From positions 1 to 20,163 of the IMG/VR virus record IMGVR_UViG_3300026518_000498: a stretch of DNA of 20,163 bases; one strand, written 5' to 3'. The stretch comes from a virus. A program made the position numbers and the translations under genes. Under the pieces are notes generated by a model. It did not search any database. It was not told where the DNA came from and saw only the letters and a program-made list of their open reading frames with translations. Shown one piece after another: positions 3,268-20,163 of the stretch. How positions within the stretch are numbered: the stretch's first letter is position 1; each line of letters opens with the position of its first letter.

Positions 3268-3705
3268 ATGCTGAAACTTGATCTTTCAAACAAACCTGCC
3301 TGGCTCGATCTCGGCCATGGTGTCCGCGTCCTGCTCGGTCCGCTGACCACCGCCATGATGGTCGCAGCCAGAAATGACCCCGCCATTATGGCGCTTCCAG
3401 AGGACACGCCAGACGAGGAAAGCGCGCTCGCTTTTGCCAAGGCGCTGGCCCGAAATGCGATGCTTGATTGGGAGGGCGTTGGGGATGTTGACGGCCACAA
3501 CATCCCTGTCAGCCCCGAGGCGATTGATGCCCTGCTGGATGTCTGGCCGTTGTTTGAGGCCTTCCAGACCGACTACGTCGCCAAAGGTCTGGTGCTGGAT
3601 CAGGAAAAAAACGTCTCTGCGCCCTTGCCGACTGGATCTTCGGCGGGGGTGGGGAATATTGCCAAGCGTGCGCGCAAACCTGCGAAACCTGCCCGCAAAA
3701 GCTGA
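3268..3705 (+). CDS. Tail assembly chaperone, zero-frame product (gpG-like)
   Basis: In the unshifted frame this gives 145 residues. It starts MLKLDLSNKPAWLDLGHGVR, has a helical middle (ESALAFAKALARNAMLDWEG) and ends in a low-complexity basic tail (KRARKPAKPARKS) that looks like out-of-frame reading. It sits between tail tube and tape measure, where tailed phages encode the paired chaperones that coat the tape measure during tail assembly. The GGGAG before the ATG at 3268 is a fair ribosome-binding site; a TTG-like start further upstream inside the tube gene is less likely. A slippery heptamer at codons 114-115 and a stem-loop behind it move some ribosomes into the -1 frame, which stays open to 3935. 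The predicted fusion is 222 residues. Confidence 0.75.
   Translation: MLKLDLSNKPAWLDLGHGVRVLLGPLTTAMMVAARNDPAIMALPEDTPDEESALAFAKALARNAMLDWEGVGDVDGHNIPVSPEAIDALLDVWPLFEAFQTDYVAKGLVLDQEKNVSAPLPTGSSAGVGNIAKRARKPAKPARKS
3606..3649 (+). promoter_or_regulatory. Programmed -1 ribosomal frameshift signal
   Basis: Positions 3606-3612 read A AAA AAC in the correct phase for tandem slippage of the codons AAA and AAC of the gene starting at 3268. After a 9-nt spacer, bases 3622-3631 pair with 3640-3649 in a 10-bp stem (eight Watson-Crick and two G-U pairs) with an 8-nt loop. The -1 frame entered at 3612 has no stop until 3935. Heptamer, spacing, stem and open downstream frame are all as known for the lambda G-GT type of tail chaperone frameshift. 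Confidence 0.85.
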
Positions 3706-3935
3706 ACGCGCCACTGACCCTTGAAGGGGTGCAGGTGTGGGATCTGGTCGGCCGCCTTGGCGGGCAGATGCGCGTGGCACCGTCGGGCGGCATTGTCGGC
3801 TGGGATATGTCAGCAGCCCTGGCGATGGCCTCGGCGCTCGGGATTAGCACGCTCGCAGTCGCAGAACTCTTGCCGCCGATCGAGGCGGTGATGGTCAAAA
3901 AACTCTTTGAGAAGATGGAACAGGATCATGGTTGA
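3612..3935 (+). CDS. Tail assembly chaperone, -1 frame extension (gpT-like)
   Basis: This frame gives 107 residues read after the -1 shift. It starts with a cysteine-rich segment, YCQACAQTCETCP (C-x2-C-x3-C-x2-C, possibly metal-binding), then the well-ordered stretch LTLEGVQVWDLVGRLGGQMR and a final helical part (PPIEAVMVKKLFEKMEQDHG). The -1 frame reads as far more protein-like than the zero frame over 3612-3705, which is strong evidence that it is used. A stand-alone start (GTG at 3729) has a purine run directly against it rather than spaced upstream, and would cut off the cysteine segment, so frameshifting is the better explanation. The end overlaps the tape measure start by eight bases, suggesting translational coupling. 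By family logic the T part recruits tube subunits to the chaperone-coated tape measure. Confidence 0.8.
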   Translation, partial: RLCALADWIFGGGGEYCQACAQTCETCPQKLNAPLTLEGVQVWDLVGRLGGQMRVAPSGGIVGWDMSAALAMASALGISTLAVAELLPPIEAVMVKKLFEKMEQDHG

Positions 3936-6057
3936 AAAACGCGTCTCCGTGCGCCTTGCGGCAGTGGGCGGCAAACAGGTGCGCGCAGAGCTGACCGGCA
4001 TTGGCGACGCTGGCAAAAAAGGTTTTGGTAAGGCCTCGCGCGAGATGGAGATCGCCAACGCGCGCCTTGCGAAGTTCGCGCGCCGGGCCAAGATCGCGGT
4101 CGGCGTCATGGTTGCCGCTGCCGCTGCGGCCGGGATCGCCATGGTGCGCTCGAGTCTTCAAACGATCGACGAGCAGGCCAAGCTGGCGGCGTCCTTGCGC
4201 ACCACCACGGCCAGCATGCAGGTCTTGGCTCGGGCCGCTGATCTGGCTGGCGTGTCCCAGGGCGAGGTCTCGCAAGCCACCATCATGATGACCAAAAGCC
4301 TCAGCCAGGCGGCGGCAGGCTCGGGTCCAGCGGTCAAAGCCCTACAACAGTTGCACCTGTCGGCGGCTGATCTCGCCAAGCTGCCGATCGATCAGAAGAT
4401 GATCCAGATTCAGGATGCGATTGCGAAGTTCATCCCGACGGCACAGCAGGCGGCAGTGGCATCAACGATTTTCGGGGCGCGCGCGGGGTTGATCTTCACC
4501 CGCATCGATAGTGCCACCTTGCACCAAGCCACCAAGGACGTGCAGGATTTTGGGGTGGCGGTGTCCGAGAAAGACGCGGCGCAGATCCAGCGAACCAATG
4601 ATGCGCTCTCGCGCATGGGCCTCTTGTGGAAAGGCATCGCCAACCAACTTGCCGTCGCCGTTGCACCAGCGCTTGAGGCCATGGCAGATGCGTTCGCGGC
4701 GTTTGGCAAGGTGACGGGGCCGCTTGGGCGCGCCATAAAAACCCTATTCAACCATCTCGGTGAAATCGTCAGCATTGCGGCGACGTTTGCGGCCGTGCTC
4801 GGCGGCAAGCTGGTGATCTCACTGGCCAGTGCCGTGCTCGGCATTCGCGGGGTATCTCTATCGCTGGCAGTTTTGCGCGGAGCCCTCATTCGCACCGGCA
4901 TCGGCGCGCTGATTGTCGGGGCGGGCGAGTTGCTCTATTGGTTCGGTCGTCTTGTGAAGGGTGCTGGCGGGTTTGGCGCGGCGATGGGCCTTCTTAAAAA
5001 CGTTGCGGTGGAAGCCTGGGGCCGGATCAAGCTCGGTGGTAAATCTCTTGGCCTTGCGCTGGCGACGGTTTGGACAACGGTTGAGACCGGCTGGCTGAGA
5101 ATGCTGGCGTCGATCCAGAAGAGATGGGCCGATTTTCTGCACAAGGTTGCCAGTGGCATGCGCGGTGTGCCGGGAATGGATGCGCTGGCTCTCAAGCTGG
5201 GCGGGGCGGCCATCATGGCTGGCTCGGCTTACTATGAAATGGCGGCGGCGGTAGATGCGGCACGAAGCAAGGCCGATGGGCTGGCTGTTGCTGCCGTGAC
5301 TGCCGCCAATGCGGCTAAGGCTCCGCTCCAATCAATTAAGGCCCTAAGCGATGCGGTGAAAACCGCAGGTGAGGATGCCAAAGTTGCCACATCAGATGCG
5401 GGAGATGCTGCGGGCACTGTCGCCACAACAATCGCCAAGGCAGGCGGGGCGGCAAAGAAAGCGGCGGATATTGCAAAATCCGCTTGGGCGAGTGCTGCCA
5501 CCTCGCTGAAGGACTACGCCGTCAAAGCCGCCGATATGGGCAAGGGGCTGGGGGATAGCCTGACCGGTGCTTTTTCAAATGCGGAAAGCGCCATTGGTGA
5601 ATTCGTTAAAACCGGCAAGTTGGATTTTCGCTCGATGATCACCTCGATGCTGGCGGACATGGCCAAGCTGTCGGCGCGCAAGTTCATTCTCGGCCCGCTG
5701 GCTAATGTTCTGTCTGGGGCGCTCGGTAAAATGGGCGGCATCTTTGCGCCTGTGCATCATGCTGGCGGCATGGTTGGCGGTATGGCACCACAACGGTTGG
5801 TGCCTGCCATGGCCTTTGCTGGCGCGCCCCGAATGCATGGTGGAGGTTGGGCTGGATTACGTCCAAGCGAGGTGCCCGCGATCCTGCAAAGAGGCGAGCG
5901 GGTGTTGTCCCGCCGCGAGGTGGCTGCCGGCGCAACCGGCTCTCAAAACATCACCATCAACATCCAGACCCGAGATGCCGAGAGCTTCCGCCAATCCCGC
6001 ACCCAGGTGGCGGCCGACATTGCCCGCGCGGTGGCCATGGGTCGGAGGGGGATGTAA
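3928..6057 (+). CDS. Phage tail tape measure protein
   Basis: This 709-residue, alanine-rich, mostly helical protein sets tail length and probably helps DNA pass the membrane. It has a basic N-terminal helix, a hydrophobic segment at about 55-73 (KIAVGVMVAAAAAAGIAMV), long helical stretches, a second hydrophobic cluster at about 279-345, and an Ala/Lys/Asp-rich coiled-coil region around 450-540. The C-terminus has GGGWAGLRPSEVPAILQRGE and RVLSRREV, a hallmark of lambda-family tape measures. The ATG at 3928 is preferred over the TTG at 3907 because it gives the usual coupled overlap with the chaperone stop. At about 0.15 nm per residue (general phage rule) the tail would be near 100 nm, far longer than a gene transfer agent tail, whose tape measure is much shorter. 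Confidence 0.88.
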   Translation: MVEKRVSVRLAAVGGKQVRAELTGIGDAGKKGFGKASREMEIANARLAKFARRAKIAVGVMVAAAAAAGIAMVRSSLQTIDEQAKLAASLRTTTASMQVLARAADLAGVSQGEVSQATIMMTKSLSQAAAGSGPAVKALQQLHLSAADLAKLPIDQKMIQIQDAIAKFIPTAQQAAVASTIFGARAGLIFTRIDSATLHQATKDVQDFGVAVSEKDAAQIQRTNDALSRMGLLWKGIANQLAVAVAPALEAMADAFAAFGKVTGPLGRAIKTLFNHLGEIVSIAATFAAVLGGKLVISLASAVLGIRGVSLSLAVLRGALIRTGIGALIVGAGELLYWFGRLVKGAGGFGAAMGLLKNVAVEAWGRIKLGGKSLGLALATVWTTVETGWLRMLASIQKRWADFLHKVASGMRGVPGMDALALKLGGAAIMAGSAYYEMAAAVDAARSKADGLAVAAVTAANAAKAPLQSIKALSDAVKTAGEDAKVATSDAGDAAGTVATTIAKAGGAAKKAADIAKSAWASAATSLKDYAVKAADMGKGLGDSLTGAFSNAESAIGEFVKTGKLDFRSMITSMLADMAKLSARKFILGPLANVLSGALGKMGGIFAPVHHAGGMVGGMAPQRLVPAMAFAGAPRMHGGGWAGLRPSEVPAILQRGERVLSRREVAAGATGSQNITINIQTRDAESFRQSRTQVAADIARAVAMGRRGM

Positions 6058-14432: not shown

Positions 14433-14777
14433 ATGAAAGACCCGTCCAAAATGGACCTGATCCAATGGCTGGCATCGGACGCCGGTCGTGCGGCCATCGC
14501 TGGAGCCGCCGGAGGGTTGGTTCGCTGGGTGACCTTGCGCGACGACTGGCGCGAGGGGCTGACAGGTCTGCTCGTTGGCAGCCTCTGTGCAATTTACCTC
14601 GGCCCACTTGCCGAACCACTGCTCGATCCGGTGATTGGCAAGATTGCTCCCGGTGACGGTGCTGCGGGCTTTGCGAGCTTCGTGATTGGTCTCGGCGGCA
14701 TCAGTATCGCGGGGTTCATTCTCGATATCATCAAGGCGCGGCGTTCCAAAGTTCTGGGAGGCCGAGATGAGAAATGA
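14433..14777 (+). CDS. Putative holin-like membrane protein
   Basis: The 114 residues hold about three hydrophobic segments: RAAIAGAAGGLVRWV, GLLVGSLCAIYLGPLAEPLL, and FASFVIGLGGISIAGFILDI. A charged C-terminus (KARRSKVLGGRDEK) follows. Size, topology and position directly before a cytosolic GH24 endolysin with no export signal make it the natural holin candidate. The endolysin needs a hole-forming partner, and no other gene of this size fits. I recognise similar short proteins in Rhodobacteraceae prophages, usually unnamed, so the function is inferred from context. A GAGGA ribosome-binding site lies about eight bases before the ATG. Confidence 0.6.
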   Translation: MKDPSKMDLIQWLASDAGRAAIAGAAGGLVRWVTLRDDWREGLTGLLVGSLCAIYLGPLAEPLLDPVIGKIAPGDGAAGFASFVIGLGGISIAGFILDIIKARRSKVLGGRDEK

Positions 14778-14881: not shown

Positions 14882-15448
14882 ATGATCATGAAAATCTCGA
14901 AACGGGGTCTCCTTGAGATCGCCGAGCACGAAGGTATTGTGCCGGGGCCTTATCTCGACAGCCGCGGCATCTGGACCTGGGGGATTGGTCACACGGCAGC
15001 GGCTGGCGCTCCCGATCCCGAAAAGATGGCCCGCGGTATGCCGGATGATGTGGATGCCGCGATAATTGGCGCGCTGAAACAGTTTAGCCGTGATCTTGGC
15101 ACTTATGAACGCCGCGTCAATCGCGCAATCAAGGTGCCGCTTAAACAGCATCAGTTTGACGCGCTGGTCAGCTTTGATTTCAACACCGGCGGGATATTCA
15201 AGGCGCGCCTCACGCAGAGGATCAATGCGAGCGATCCGGGCGCGGCCGACAGCTTCATGGGCTGGCTGAGACCGCCGGAAATCCGGGGGCGGCGCAGCGA
15301 TGAAATGCGCCTGTTCCAGACCGGTGATTACAAGGCCAATGGTGATGTAATCAAGGTTTGGCGGGTGGATGGGAATGGCCACCTGCGAGGGCTCGATCGT
15401 GTGATGTATGGCGACGACCTGTTGGCGGTGATGGGGCAGCGCGCATGA
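14882..15448 (+). CDS. GH24 phage endolysin (T4-type lysozyme)
   Basis: This 188-residue muramidase cuts the beta-1,4 link between N-acetylmuramic acid and N-acetylglucosamine. The catalytic triad is visible with the same spacing as T4 lysozyme: E17 in AEHEGIV, D26 in PYLDSRG and T32 in WTWGIGHT. The conserved second half includes PLKQHQFDALVSFDFNTGG and the SDEMRLFQTGDY segment. There is no signal peptide or signal-arrest-release helix at the N-terminus, so it should wait in the cytoplasm for a holin. An AGGGA ribosome-binding site precedes the ATG at 14882; the ATG at 14888 is an alternative. The stop overlaps the i-spanin start (ATGA). Confidence 0.93.
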   Translation: MIMKISKRGLLEIAEHEGIVPGPYLDSRGIWTWGIGHTAAAGAPDPEKMARGMPDDVDAAIIGALKQFSRDLGTYERRVNRAIKVPLKQHQFDALVSFDFNTGGIFKARLTQRINASDPGAADSFMGWLRPPEIRGRRSDEMRLFQTGDYKANGDVIKVWRVDGNGHLRGLDRVMYGDDLLAVMGQRA

Positions 15449-15777
15449 TCCGGTTTCTTATGGGAATCATCGGCCGTCCGGCCATACTGGGTTGGGCGTT
15501 GGCCGGGGTCATGGCGCTGGTTGGCGGAAGCTACACCCTTGGTCGCTATCAGGGGACCGCTACCGCCAATACCAAACGGGCGGCCGAACAGGCTCGCCTC
15601 CAGGTACAGATGATGCGTATGGCCGACATCGCCTCACGCAAAGAAGCCGCGCGTCTGGCCGCTGTCGCCGCAGCCGACAAACTTTTAAGGGAGCTTGAAG
15701 ATGCAGCACATACGGACCCTCTTGCTGACCGGGTTTCCCTTGGCGCTGACAGCGTGCGCCGCCTCAACCGCCGTTAG
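15445..15777 (+). CDS. i-spanin (Rz-like inner-membrane spanin subunit), copy 1
   Basis: The 110 residues have a short N-terminus, one hydrophobic helix at about 13-30 (AILGWALAGVMALVGGSYTL), then a periplasmic alanine- and charge-rich helix from about 40 to 95 that looks like a coiled coil (ADIASRKEAARLAAVAAADK). This is the type II membrane topology of Rz-like spanins, which join an outer-membrane lipoprotein to fuse the envelopes at the last step of lysis. Position after the endolysin and overlap with a small lipoprotein gene in another frame make the call firm despite low sequence conservation of spanins. The ATG at 15445 overlaps the endolysin stop. Confidence 0.85.
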   Translation: MIRFLMGIIGRPAILGWALAGVMALVGGSYTLGRYQGTATANTKRAAEQARLQVQMMRMADIASRKEAARLAAVAAADKLLRELEDAAHTDPLADRVSLGADSVRRLNRR

Positions 15778-15958
15778 CCCACGCCTCAGCCCGCCGCCGT
15801 CGTTGCTGGTGCCATGCGCCGCGCCGGTGAGATTGCCGGAGCGGGCGCTGACGCAGGCCGAGGTCGAAACCTTTTGGGGGCGGGATAGAACTGCGTTGCG
15901 CCGGTGTGGGGGGAGGCATCAGGGGTTGGTGGATTTTGTGTCTTCACCGCCCAGTTAG
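15701..15958 (+). CDS. o-spanin (Rz1-like outer-membrane lipoprotein), copy 1
   Basis: The 85 residues start with a lipoprotein signal (LLLTGFPLALTAC) whose lipidated cysteine is C19. A proline-rich segment follows (PRLSPPPSLLVP), as is common in Rz1, then PERALTQAEVETFWGRDRTA and a CGGRH motif. The first 77 bases lie inside the i-spanin gene in the +1 frame, the classic overlapping spanin arrangement. The AGGGAG ribosome-binding site falls within the i-spanin coding sequence. The last residues differ from copy 2, and the end overlaps the convergent DUF218 remnant by 15 bases, so the C-terminus may have been altered at a junction. Confidence 0.85.
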   Translation: MQHIRTLLLTGFPLALTACAASTAVSPRLSPPPSLLVPCAAPVRLPERALTQAEVETFWGRDRTALRRCGGRHQGLVDFVSSPPS

Positions 15959-16450
15959 CGAATAAGCCAGCAGGCCGACATATTCTTTGACAGCGATGTT
16001 TAGGGTTTCGAGGTTCTTGGCGAGATTCCAGCTGATATCATCAGCAAATCGGCCGGAGCGGTAGTCAACTGGGTAGGGAATTACCCCGGTCCAGCCCGCG
16101 CGCTGAAAACTGCGCATGGCGCGGGGCATATGAAAAGCAGATGTAACCAACACCCAAGTTTGGCCCGGTTCGGGCCGCAACAGCGCGTAGGTCAGGAGGG
16201 CGTTTTCGGTTGTGTTACGCGATTTGCTTTCCAGAATGAGGCGGTTGGCCGGAATTCCCTGTTCCGAGAAAAATTGCTTGGCTACGGTTGCTCCACTGAT
16301 GCCTTTTTCCAACGCGTCCCTCAAAGAGTCGCTGCCACCAGAGAAAATAAGCTTGGCGTTTGGGAATCGTCGGCCCAACGCCAGTGCGGTGGTGAACCGC
16401 TCCCCTGCGTCATTGAGTTGGACCTGATCCCAATATGCTGTTCGACGTGC
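15944..16450 (-). pseudogene. DUF218/YdcF-like protein, N-terminally truncated
   Basis: About 168 codons match the DUF218 fold seen in YdcF/SanA/ElyC-type proteins: VQLNDAGERF, the SGGSDSL loop, SRNTTENALLTYALL and LVTSAFHMPRAMRSFQRAG, ending VIPYPVDYRSGRFADD and a short tail. Missing are the N-terminal membrane helices and the first strand with its VVLGG-type motif, roughly 100 residues. Sequence identity to the family stops near 16445, where the second spanin cassette begins. The frame stays open upstream to 16549, but those 34 residues are only the antisense reading of the i-spanin copy. Intact members act in envelope or polysaccharide metabolism, with no settled reaction. This copy is probably inactive. 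Confidence 0.8.
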
Positions 16451-16638
16451 AAGCACGCCTGCAAACGCAGATGATCCGCGCCGCTGAAATCGCCTCACGC
16501 AAAGAAGCCGCGCGTTTGGCCGCTGTCGCCGCGGCCGATAAATTTTCAAAGGAGCTCGAAGATGCAGCCCATAAGGATCGCAATGCTGACCGGATTTCCC
16601 TTGGCGCTGACAGCGTGCGCCGCCTCAACCGTCAGTAA
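16448..16638 (+). pseudogene. i-spanin copy 2, lacking N-terminal anchor
   Basis: The frame repeats the second half of copy 1: QMIRAAEIASRKEAARLAA and VAAADKFSKELEDAA, ending GADSVRRLNRQ. Homology begins at about 16450, matching 15589 in copy 1, with a constant 861-base offset and no gaps. The membrane helix and the first 48 codons are gone. An ATG at 16435 would give a 67-residue frame, but its first residues come from the truncated DUF218 region. Without the anchor it cannot work as a spanin, so its remaining role may be only to carry the nested o-spanin. Confidence 0.8.
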
Positions 16639-16798
16639 CCCAGCAATCGGTCCGCCACCGTCGTTGATGGTGCCGTGTGTTGCGCCAGTGAAGCTACCTG
16701 AGCGGGCGCTGACGCAGGCCGAGGTCGAAACCTTTTGGGGGCAGGATAGGACTGCGTTGCGAAGGTGCGGAGGGCGTCATGGTGGTTTGATCGATTGG
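16450..16798 (+). repeat. Diverged direct repeat of the spanin cassette (partner 15589-15937)
   Basis: About 350 bases repeat in the same orientation at an 861-base offset without indels. They cover the 3' half of the i-spanin gene and nearly all of the o-spanin gene. The left end of the repeat coincides with the break in the DUF218 gene, and the right end with the point where the two o-spanin C-termini diverge. Confidence 0.8.
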
Positions 16799-16819
16799 AT
16801 CGCTGAGTCTCACAGCTGA
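16562..16819 (+). CDS. o-spanin (Rz1-like lipoprotein), copy 2
   Basis: This is an intact 85-residue lipoprotein of the same length as copy 1 and identical at roughly three quarters of positions by my count. The signal is AMLTGFPLALTAC with C19 as the lipid site, followed by a proline-rich GPPPSLMVP and PERALTQAEVETFWGQDRTA. It is nested in the +1 frame of the broken i-spanin copy, exactly as in copy 1. Several substitutions between copies are conservative (R/K, V/I, L/M), suggesting both were under selection while diverging, in separate phages rather than after a recent local duplication. The C-terminus (GLIDWIAESHS) is probably the native one. Confidence 0.8.
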   Translation: MQPIRIAMLTGFPLALTACAASTVSNPAIGPPPSLMVPCVAPVKLPERALTQAEVETFWGQDRTALRRCGGRHGGLIDWIAESHS

Positions 16820-16907
16820 TCACGTTTTGAATGGCGCAGCTATTGCAATCAATCCCGATATGGCTTTTTTTGTGAGGGTGTTCAGAATTCCGTGTCACGG
16901 GGTTAGC

Positions 16908-18150
16908 CTAGATATCCAGCACGTCGTCTAACCTCCCCTCAAAATAGATCGAGAACTGGGACAGTGTCAAATTCCAGTTTTGCAGCGGCATGGTCCAATT
17001 TTTGGATGCATTCTGGATACCCATATACAGAAGCTTAAGCAGGCTGTTTTCGTTAGGAAACGCGCCCTTGGTTTTGGTCAGTTTTCGGAACTGTCGGTGC
17101 ACGGCCTCGATTGCGTTGGTGGTATAATTCACCCGCCGGATGTCGTCTGGATACTTGAAATAGGTCGACAGGTTTGGCCATTTCTTGCGCCAAGATTTCA
17201 GGACGATGGGGTATTTTTTGCCCCATTTTTCTTCCAGTTCATCCAACGCCACCTCGGCGGATTCAACCGTTTCGGCTTTATAAACCGGCTTCAGATCGGC
17301 CATGAATTCTTTCTGGTTTTTGCTGGCCACATATTTCAGAGAATTGCGGATTTGGTGAATTACACAGAGCTGAACCTCGGTTTTTGGAAGGATCGCATTG
17401 ATTGCTTCAGGGAACCCCGTCAGCCCGTCCACACAGGCAATGAGGATGTCTTCCAGCCCGCGATTATTCAGGTCCGTTAGCACCGACAGCCAGAAGTTTG
17501 CGCCTTCTGTTTCAGACAGATAGAGGCCCAGAATATCCTTCCTGCCCTCAAGATTCAGCCCCAGAACCGTGTACACCGCCTTGCTCGCATAGCGCCCGTC
17601 CTGCTTGACCTTGTAGTGGATCGCGTCCAGCCAGATGATCGGATAATGGCTGGCCAGCGGGCGGTTCTGCCACGCCTTGATCTCGGGGATCAGTTTGTCA
17701 GTGATCGCGCTGATTGAGGCGTTGGAAACCTCTAGCCCGTAGATTTCTGCGATGTGCCCGGCGATGTCCAAGTAGCTCATCCCCAACCCAAACATCGAGA
17801 TAATCTTGCGCTCGATCTCGTCGCTCATGTGGGTCTGATGTTTTTTCACGAGGTGCGGTTCAAATGATCCCGCCCTGTCGCGCGGGGTCGCCAGTTCAAA
17901 ACTGCCAGTGGTCGATTTGATGGTTTTACGGCCGGATCCATTCCTGCGATTGGCAGACTCGGAGCTTTGCAAATGCGCGGCCATTTCAGCCCTCAGGGCG
18001 GCCTCCGTCAGTTGCTCTCTTCTCGGTGATTGCTGCACAATCACCTGTCAGGCAATGTATCAGTGGCGTCAGGATGCCATCTTTACCCGTGAGGCCTCGG
18101 CCATCTTGCAGCGCGGCCAAAGCCACCTCAAAATCAAATTCTTCTCGCAT
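16908..18150 (-). pseudogene. IS256-family transposase, frame broken by an insertion of about 40 nt
   Basis: The main frame (16908-18044) encodes a Mutator/IS256-type DDE transposase: the first Asp in IIWLDAIHYKVK, the second in IACVDGLTGFPEAI, the Glu in TTNAIEAVHRQFRK, and CVIHQIRNSLKYVASK between them. The expected N-terminus lies in another frame starting at the ATG at 18150 (MREEFDFEVALAALQDGRGL, then LTPLI). In relatives LTPLI runs straight into KQLTEAAL; here about 40 extra bases separate them, shifting the frame by one and placing a TGA before the main frame. The internal GTG at 18044 could still give a protein lacking the first 30 or so residues. Activity is doubtful unless ribosomes shift. 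Confidence 0.8.
18025..18045. repeat. Hairpin inside the transposase-disrupting insertion
   Basis: The arms GGTGATTG (18025-18032) and CAATCACC (18038-18045) pair perfectly around a 5-base loop. The hairpin sits in the middle of the extra bases (about 18017-18058) that split the transposase frame. It might be a tiny inserted element. Confidence 0.6.
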
Positions 18151-18287
18151 GTGTCATTCCTTTTCTTCAGTTTACAGAAATGACACGGAATTTCTAACGC
18201 TCCCTTTTTTGTCGGAAAACAGCAATCTATTCCTGTGGCCGGTCTCCTGTTACACGTCCGGCATGAAACCCGCCGACGAAAAACGCA

Positions 18288-18536
18288 TTGCGTAATCAGC
18301 TCTTCGCTTTCACCCGTTTGCCGCAAAGCCAGTGGGAATCAGCCCGGACCACAAACGCAATCGAACGCCGGAACGAGGAATTTCGCCGCCGCGTCAAGAT
18401 CCAGTCCGTGTTGCCATGCGCCGAAACCGTACCAATGCTGCTCTGGGCTCTGATGGCCTCGGGCCAGATTATCATGCGAAAGGTCGATGGCTGGGAAACC
18501 TTGGCTCAGCCCGTCGCTGACGCAACCCTTGACTAA
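18288..18536 (+). pseudogene. C-terminal remnant of a second, different IS256-family transposase
   Basis: The 82-codon frame matches only the C-terminal end of another IS256 group: LFAFTRLPQSQWESARTTNA, IERRNEEFRRRVKIQSVLPC, and AETVPMLLWALMASGQIIMR followed by KVDGWETLAQ. It retains the Glu of the NAIE motif but not the two Asp-containing regions, so it cannot be active. It reads opposite to the complete IS256 element beside it and shares little sequence with it, so it is a separate, older element truncated on its left near 18290. The 75 bases between the two elements show nothing I can identify. Confidence 0.8.
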
Positions 18537-18584
18537 GCCGCCTGATCGGCGCAAAATTAACCCGCTCGGAGGCGCGTGAAATCA

Positions 18585-18610
18585 ATTTCTACCACTTTTG
18601 AGACACAACC
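18585..18610. repeat. Possible right terminal repeat of the truncated IS256 remnant
   Basis: The bases around TTTCTACCACTTTTGAGACA, 50 to 75 bases after the remnant's stop codon, resemble the outer ends of IS256-group elements as I remember them. The partner end is missing because the left part is deleted, so this cannot be confirmed within the window. Confidence 0.4.
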
Positions 18611-18672
18611 GGGGCAATGTTTCGGAAATTTTGTTAAATGCAGCTGCACTAGCCATTAGGTTCAATACATAC

Positions 18673-19428
18673 ATGTCTCGAATCCCCAAGATCAGTATAT
18701 GCATCCCAGCCTACGAAATGCATGGACACGGTGCGACATTTCTGGCCAATTCTTTCGAAATTCTGCGTCAGCAAACCTATACTGATTTTGAAGTTGTTGT
18801 TGCCGACCAGTCAAACGACAATTCAGTTGCAGAAACCTGTGCTTCATTCCCCGACCTGTCAATTCGCCACATCTGGACACGCGACCAACCGCGTCAGGGA
18901 TCAGCCAATACGAATGTCGCAATCGATGCGGCTAAGGGCGAAATTGTTAAAATACTGTTTCAGGACGACTTTCTGAACGGACCCGACGCGCTTGGCGGCA
19001 TCGTCTTGGCTTTTGACGACAACAACGTCTTGTGGTGCTTGAACGGCTCTGAATGCACTGAGGACGGGCAAGCACTGATTCGGCCTATGATTCCCCAATA
19101 CCACTCACGGATTCAATTCGGGAAAAACACGGTAAGTTCACCCTCAGTTCTTGCGCTGCGCAGAAAGAATGCACCGCGTTTTGATGAGAATCTGGTCTGG
19201 TTAATGGATGTTGACTATTACAAACAATGCGAGCTTCGGTTCGGGCCGCCAACGATCATTCCCGAATTTTTAATCGTAAATCGAATTCATGATGGGCAGG
19301 TCAGCGCAACTACCGGCAGCAAACTGAAACGTCAGGAATTGCAGTATATTGCGCGCAAGTACAGCACGTCCCTTGGAATGCTCGACTGGGCGCACTATGC
19401 TCGAAGATTAGTCAAATACCTGCGATAA
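18673..19428 (+). CDS. Family 2 glycosyltransferase
   Basis: The 251 residues have a GT-A fold pattern. The nucleotide-binding start is ISICIPAYE at about 7-15, followed by TDFEVVVADQSNDNS, a DXD-like metal site at about 97-99 (LFQDDF), and a conserved acidic segment WLMDVDYYKQC near 176-184. No membrane helix is present. GT2 enzymes transfer a sugar from a nucleotide donor; acceptor and sugar cannot be read here. A sulfotransferase lies 156 bases away and convergent, which points to modification of a surface polysaccharide or glycolipid. I chose the ATG at 18673 because the domain begins within a few residues. The gene looks AT-richer than the phage region, in keeping with a separately acquired surface locus. 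Confidence 0.85.
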   Translation: MSRIPKISICIPAYEMHGHGATFLANSFEILRQQTYTDFEVVVADQSNDNSVAETCASFPDLSIRHIWTRDQPRQGSANTNVAIDAAKGEIVKILFQDDFLNGPDALGGIVLAFDDNNVLWCLNGSECTEDGQALIRPMIPQYHSRIQFGKNTVSSPSVLALRRKNAPRFDENLVWLMDVDYYKQCELRFGPPTIIPEFLIVNRIHDGQVSATTGSKLKRQELQYIARKYSTSLGMLDWAHYARRLVKYLR

Positions 19429-19584
19429 TCCAAGATGCCGGGCTTGCAGCAGTGCTGAATTGATGATTGATCAGCGAAGTTGCGGGCGGACATACCCGGC
19501 GGAGTAACACGGAGTGCTTGAAAGAGGGCGCCGATGCCACCTAAAAAACCGAAAAGCAACGAGAAGTCATTTTATTTTAACAAC

Positions 19585-20163
19585 TTACAGGTCAAACGAA
19601 TAGCCAAACAGCGCGATGTCGCGCTCATGCCGACGGGCCACAAGGATAGCGTCTGCGTCCGAATAATATGTGCGGTAGTTCTTGTGTACCGATTCATTTA
19701 CGCGCTTTTTGGGAGCCGCGAGGCGAAGAGCGTATTTTTTGACGAAGATGCCGAAATCTTCCTCCAAGGTTTCTTGGCGCATTAGAAAATCGACTCCAAT
19801 CTTTCCATTTTCGTCAATTATCCAGTCGCAAACGTTGTGTACGGCAGCAATTTCCTGTTTTTCTGCTGTCTTGGAGTCATCAACCCACGCCAGGTAATCC
19901 GAGAATGAATATTTTGTTAGACGTTCATGGACATCGGCGGCTTTCTCTTTGTTCCGTCCCTTGAGCTGCTGAATGTAGTGGTAAACCGAAACGTGCCAGG
20001 CCCAAGGATTGCGGACCACTGAAAATGTCATGAAATCGGTAAACGGTGCGAGCACCCCATCCATTTCCAGCCTTTTGCCCCTCGCAAGATTCTGATCTGA
20101 TTTGCCGAGATCGGTAATTTGGAGGGTAGCACCAAATGGAGCAACATTTGTTAGGGGAGGCCC
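19585..20163 (-). CDS. Sulfotransferase family protein, 5' end outside window
   Basis: The frame is open from the right edge to the stop at 19585, giving 192 residues of a partial protein. The PAPS 3'-phosphate-binding motif is clear: TFSVVRNPWAWHVSVYHYI. The C-terminal part has RVNESVHKNYRTYYSDADAI and HERDIALFGYSFDL, the usual ending of family-2-type bacterial sulfotransferases. The N-terminal PAPS 5'-phosphosulfate loop would lie beyond the window. The enzyme moves sulfate from PAPS to a hydroxyl, probably on a carbohydrate given the neighbouring glycosyltransferase. An internal ATG at 20064 is not the start, since the upstream residues keep reading as protein (APFGATLQITDLGKSDQN). It converges on the glycosyltransferase gene. 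Confidence 0.85.
   Translation of the reverse strand, partial: GPPLTNVAPFGATLQITDLGKSDQNLARGKRLEMDGVLAPFTDFMTFSVVRNPWAWHVSVYHYIQQLKGRNKEKAADVHERLTKYSFSDYLAWVDDSKTAEKQEIAAVHNVCDWIIDENGKIGVDFLMRQETLEEDFGIFVKKYALRLAAPKKRVNESVHKNYRTYYSDADAILVARRHERDIALFGYSFDL

Follow-up and report, generated by a model that had tools for sequence, protein, structure and literature searches.

Two diverged spanin cassettes around a truncated DUF218 gene: a probable recombination scar in an RcGTA-like tail and lysis gene cluster

In overlapped two-component spanin systems of the Rz/Rz1 type (Pfam LysC, PHROG 456) an endolysin gene is followed by those of an anchored i-spanin and an o-spanin lipoprotein that overlaps it out of frame, and duplication of the spanin locus followed by deletion was proposed as a step in spanin evolution (Kongari et al., 2018; PMC6139136). 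The first spanin cassette of the locus described here has the same composition. Unlike in the Rz/Rz1-type systems, it is followed by a second, diverged and anchorless cassette, with a fragment of a host gene in between. The tail genes upstream are in the order common to RcGTA-like tail clusters of Rhodobacterales, with gp12-, gp13-, gp14-like, gp15-like and DUF2793-type genes, the last of which is reported to encode a tail fibre of the RcGTA particle and to co-evolve with GTA genes (PMC10883770). In several host genomes with such clusters the tail fibre gene is followed on its 3′ side by a gene termed here gene M, whereas in our locus the two are separated by a complete holin-endolysin-spanin cassette. 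The locus can also be compared with the illegitimate joints of mosaic phages, one recognised route to which is homology-facilitated illegitimate recombination (PMC3240628), since it shares with them near-zero homology inside coding genes and collinear related flanks. It differs from them in that one parental side is a host polysaccharide gene that had already been fused to the lysis cassette, and in that we infer the route.

The window, i.e., the whole stretch of DNA that was analysed, is a virus record of 20163 bases, classed as a fragment, and represents a cluster of phage-derived tail and lysis genes from a bacterium of the Rhodobacteraceae type. Matches above cut-off to TIGR02217, TIGR02218 and TIGR02219 mark gp12-, gp13- and gp14-type GTA tail genes, and PHROG matches add a tail terminator, a minor tail protein, an assembly chaperone and a tape measure. 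A further gene we take to be gp15-like and another to be a tail fibre gene of the DUF2793 type, these names coming from our own reading together with PHROG tail fibre matches. The label RcGTA-like rests on this tail gene set, the head genes and other GTA features lying outside the 20163-base window. The lysis cassette begins with a holin-like gene (14433–14777, + strand; phrog_13918, 3.5e-25; phrog_2359 holin, 1.4e-7) and an endolysin gene of the phage lysozyme type (14882–15448, +; PF00959, 9e-23; phrog_7 endolysin). No integrase, repressor or att site was recognised among the scanned genes of this fragment, and the region found no match in annotated phages. At the other end of the window an EamA-type transporter gene (628–1536, −) is placed on the opposite strand between two phage genes, a phrog_6367 gene (135–494) and the tail terminator gene (1859–2290), and has a close relative in one of 61 related genomes (G030, 75% identical).

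The sequence-only reading had reported a spanin stretch of about 350 bases occurring twice at an offset of 861, and this was borne out: positions 15589–15888 and 16450–16749 form a gap-free direct repeat with 83% identity over 300 nt, which includes exact common stretches of up to 43 nt. Towards about 15935 and 16796 the resemblance is lost, so that the copies extend over 15589–15935 and 16450–16796. At other offsets the same stretch gives 25.5% ± 2.8% identity and reaches at most 34%, hence the repeat did not arise by chance. In copy 1 the i-spanin (15445–15777, +, 110 aa) matches Rz-like spanins weakly (phrog_6197/1026), is 85% identical to the i-spanin of a related locus, L006, and has an N-terminal membrane anchor, with hydrophobic residues 8–26 (mean hydropathy 1.8), that aligns with relatives. 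The o-spanin lipoprotein (15701–15958, +, 85 aa) matches phrog_456, Rz-like spanin, at 1.2e-7 and PF23793 (LysC) at 1.6e-5, slightly under the cut-off; its gene starts out of frame within the i-spanin gene and ends beyond it, with a 77-nt overlap. Its lipobox, LTAC, is invariant across the five o-spanin sequences compared. Judged by these features, the spanin pair of copy 1 is complete and of the overlapped type, and it probably works. It is a mosaic, with an i-spanin nearer to L006 and an o-spanin end nearer to a second related locus, L014.

Copy 2 has kept only the periplasmic part of the i-spanin (16450–16638, +), whose homology starts at 16450. The fragment carries no hydrophobic anchor, the best mean hydropathy being 0.5, and because the anchor is missing it is predicted to be unable to reach the inner membrane. 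The o-spanin gene of copy 2 (16562–16819, +, 85 aa; phrog_456, 3e-8; PF23793 LysC, 5.4e-6) has an intact lipobox and is preceded by a good ribosome-binding site, AAAGGAGCTCGAAGATG. The two o-spanin proteins are 74% identical, in line with the difference at about a quarter of residues given before; the earlier description of the copy 2 gene as nested has to be changed to overlapped, as it shares no more than its first 77 nt with the i-spanin gene.

Between the copies lies a gene of the YdcF/ElyC type (DUF218; 15944–16449, −; PF02698, 5e-29) that lacks its N-terminus, the fragment matching profile positions 11–133 of 133. L014 encodes an intact protein of 260 aa to which it is 90% identical over 168 aa, and since the alignment begins at residue 93, residues 93–260 are present and the first 92 of 260 (35%) were lost. 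The sequence-only reading had placed the loss of the i-spanin anchor exactly where the DUF218 gene lost its N-terminal half; the coincidence holds to the very base, although the missing part is one third of the protein and not half. The open frame of the fragment continues to 16549 in antisense spanin DNA. Nucleotide differences from L014 are concentrated at third codon positions (9, 9 and 47 at the first, second and third), thus most of the divergence predates the truncation. It is a host gene of the surface-polysaccharide type and not one of a phage. Next to it in L014 lie genes for an FkbM methyltransferase and a GDP-sugar epimerase, and in two further loci, by our reading of the translations, the neighbour is presumably a mannose-1-phosphate guanylyltransferase gene (L041) and a glycosyltransferase-like gene (L042). 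The C-terminal TGR recurs in host genes gathered independently of spanins. No relatives were found in IMG/VR contigs, which argues against DUF218 being common phage cargo, and on plasmids there were only distant YdcF-like genes, in two Rhodobacterales, near a glycosyltransferase or other polysaccharide-type genes.

The breaks in the DUF218 gene and in the copy 2 i-spanin gene coincide at base 16450, and an unbroken relative exists for each side of this junction (16449–16451), which fixes the breakpoint to the base. On the left, L014 (MAG contig JAADIJ010000128.1) aligns without gaps to window positions 15400–16450, and past 16450 its identity falls to 20–24%, i.e., to background. It carries a single spanin cassette and, behind it, an intact DUF218 gene with further genes of the surface-polysaccharide kind; it thereby supplies both the intact gene and the spanin-DUF218 order that were to be looked for in related genomes. 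On the right, L006/L015 (JALUYI010000001.1; MAG) aligns to 16450–16870 and again, behind an insertion sequence, to 18204–18291; it has a single intact cassette and then gene M. The earlier suggestion that one junction broke both genes is thus upheld. L014 and L006 have one base in common at the joint, a count that holds for these references, which are relatives of about 80–90% identity and not the actual donors. In a tree of the repeat (about 370 nt, eight sequences) copy 2 groups with L006 with a support of 0.99 and copy 1 stands outside the pair, which makes duplication in place unlikely. The 3′ tails agree with the flanks, as copy 1 ends L014-like and copy 2 runs on L006-like toward gene M. 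The junction is known from one metagenome-type contig, and an exact-pattern scan of IMG/VR, from which the window's own record may be absent, gave no second contig with it.

An older joint is found at the end of copy 1 (15935–15958), where the 3′ end of the o-spanin gene and that of the DUF218 gene overlap by 15 nt on opposite strands in both the window and L014. The o-spanin tail VDFVSSPPS occurs in these two only, other relatives carrying other tails, and a pattern scan for this joint found no other IMG/VR contig. The gene order of L014 is itself an older joint, of a tail cluster to host DNA. The variation of the flanks among relatives also raised the possibility of a phage attachment site where the o-spanin gene ends; against it, gene M belongs to tail clusters, and in one relative (L013) the cut lies inside the o-spanin gene.

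Behind copy 2 the DNA is interrupted by an insertion sequence of the IS256 (Mutator) family (16874–18204), with a Transposase_mut domain in its transposase (16908–18044, −; PF00872, 4e-99), imperfect terminal inverted repeats, as seen when its ends were compared, and a short target duplication of 8 bp, TTTTTTGT, at 16866–16873 and 18205–18212, the site being unsplit in L006. Beyond it only the first 10 codons of gene M (MKPADEKRIA; 18262–18291, +) are left before the gene is cut off, in a stretch 94% identical to L006 3596–3683. In L006 gene M (3637–4035, 132 aa) is the gene that natively follows the cassette. It found no match in Pfam, PHROG or NCBIfam scans; in the RcGTA-like clusters of several genomes (the L053–L060 set) its place is directly 3′ of the tail fibre gene, or 5′ of it in L056 and L057, and it is present in two copies in each of the related genomes G002 and G003. 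At the cut a C-terminal fragment of a second Mutator-family transposase begins (18288–18536, +; PF00872, 1.4e-9, profile positions 315–371 of 379). The flank at 18288–20064 consists of this fragment, a family 2 glycosyltransferase gene and a sulfotransferase-like gene. The glycosyltransferase (18598–19428) has no close relative among the 61 related genomes, hence it could not be established what originally adjoined the right flank. The older joint shared with L014 had been missed in the sequence-only reading.

Rearrangement of the same site was also seen in other relatives. The MAG genomes G002 and G003 contain several paralogous tail clusters, and so hold raw material for ectopic recombination. 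In G003 an intact spanin pair is followed, at a distance of about 300 nt, by a frameshifted remnant of a second o-spanin (L016, 6615–6901), and this in turn by what we read as the start of an IS5-type transposase. In L013 (5077–5140) the o-spanin likeness ends directly after the i-spanin stop and gives way to a sequence whose ends read AGCGTTTTC ... GAAAACGC. As L016, L013 and the window, with its cut gene M, each differ, the 3′ flank of the cassette has been rearranged in several relatives, the observed states being an o-spanin with a polysaccharide gene (L014), a decayed second o-spanin with IS5-like DNA (L016), a lost o-spanin (L013) and the doubled cassette of the window. It may tentatively be suggested, as a possibility that we do not rate highly, that exchange recurs at the 3′ end of the cassette among RcGTA-like clusters and that doubled cassettes are possible natural intermediates of a duplication-then-deletion route. 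A further locus, in another genome of the family (L029/L039, G201:C13:30065-30925), shows two o-spanin-like matches about 600 nt apart, the second of which resembles the end of a longer membrane protein.

The arrangement is best explained as a recombination scar and not as a functional double system, and we consider it probable that two related tail/lysis clusters of the RcGTA-like kind recombined illegitimately, possibly with the help of homology. In an L014-like parent the last codons of the o-spanin gene would already have been joined to the 3′ end of the host YdcF/DUF218 gene, while an L006-like parent would have had the native order of i-spanin, o-spanin and gene M. An illegitimate joint from inside DUF218 of the former to inside the i-spanin gene of the latter would then give a complete first cassette, a beheaded DUF218 gene and a beheaded second cassette. 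This may have happened by deletion between two clusters of one chromosome, or by way of incoming DNA that had homology at one end and was joined illegitimately at the other; IS256-type elements would have disrupted the stretch 3′ of copy 2. The sequence-only reading had proposed two related prophages; the recombination of two related elements agrees with the flanks, the tree and the multi-cluster genomes, but the evidence for what these elements were is an RcGTA-like tail gene set. An assembler might instead have joined two loci of one metagenome at 16450. The joint is indeed confined to one contig, a 20163-base fragment, and the exact stretches of up to 43 nt common to the copies could mislead an assembler. 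Yet the joint lies outside these stretches and has one shared base, whereas a false join in a graph-based assembly needs a long shared word; moreover, the nearby IS256 element with its 8-bp target duplication and the transposase-cut gene M show that this stretch rearranges, and L016 has a comparable second o-spanin remnant. Such a chimera is thus unlikely.

Still more improbable is that the spanin locus of one element was duplicated in tandem, with DUF218 inserted between the copies and the anchor of copy 2 lost later. The same orientation and order of the copies fit such a history, and so does the duplication-then-deletion step proposed for spanins (Kongari et al., 2018; PMC6139136), but the copies are not sisters, their flanks match two different parents, and the cut of DUF218 and i-spanin at the same base would need two events where recombination needs one. 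A different matter, which concerns use and not origin and is compatible with recombination, is whether selection has kept the copy 2 o-spanin as an additional partner of the copy 1 i-spanin. The sequence-only reading saw that i-spanin as the only partner left to it, yet the host genome may contain further clusters. The frame of the copy 2 o-spanin, its lipobox and ribosome-binding site are intact, it scores slightly above copy 1 against o-spanin families, and its synthesis would still be possible if lysis-operon transcription crosses about 600 nt antisense to DUF218. On the other hand, the frames of the beheaded i-spanin and DUF218 are open as well, and an intact frame may therefore be no more than a sign of a recent event; the differences from L006 by codon position are 21, 14 and 21, without third-position excess, in a test that the overlapping i-spanin frame blurs; and the stretch 3′ of copy 2 is broken by IS elements. 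We therefore regard selection for such a partnership as doubtful. We see the copy 2 o-spanin as a spare lipoprotein or else as a relic, and copy 2 as a whole is probably a relic.

Recombination between related clusters thus offers the best account of the locus, which in other respects is ordinary mosaicism with an illegitimate joint of a known kind. What sets it apart is that it is an unusually readable case of lysis-gene exchange among the phage-derived clusters of one bacterial group. A doubled spanin locus is the intermediate type called for by models of spanin evolution (PMC6139136); here it appears to have been made by recombination between relatives, and it is probably decaying.
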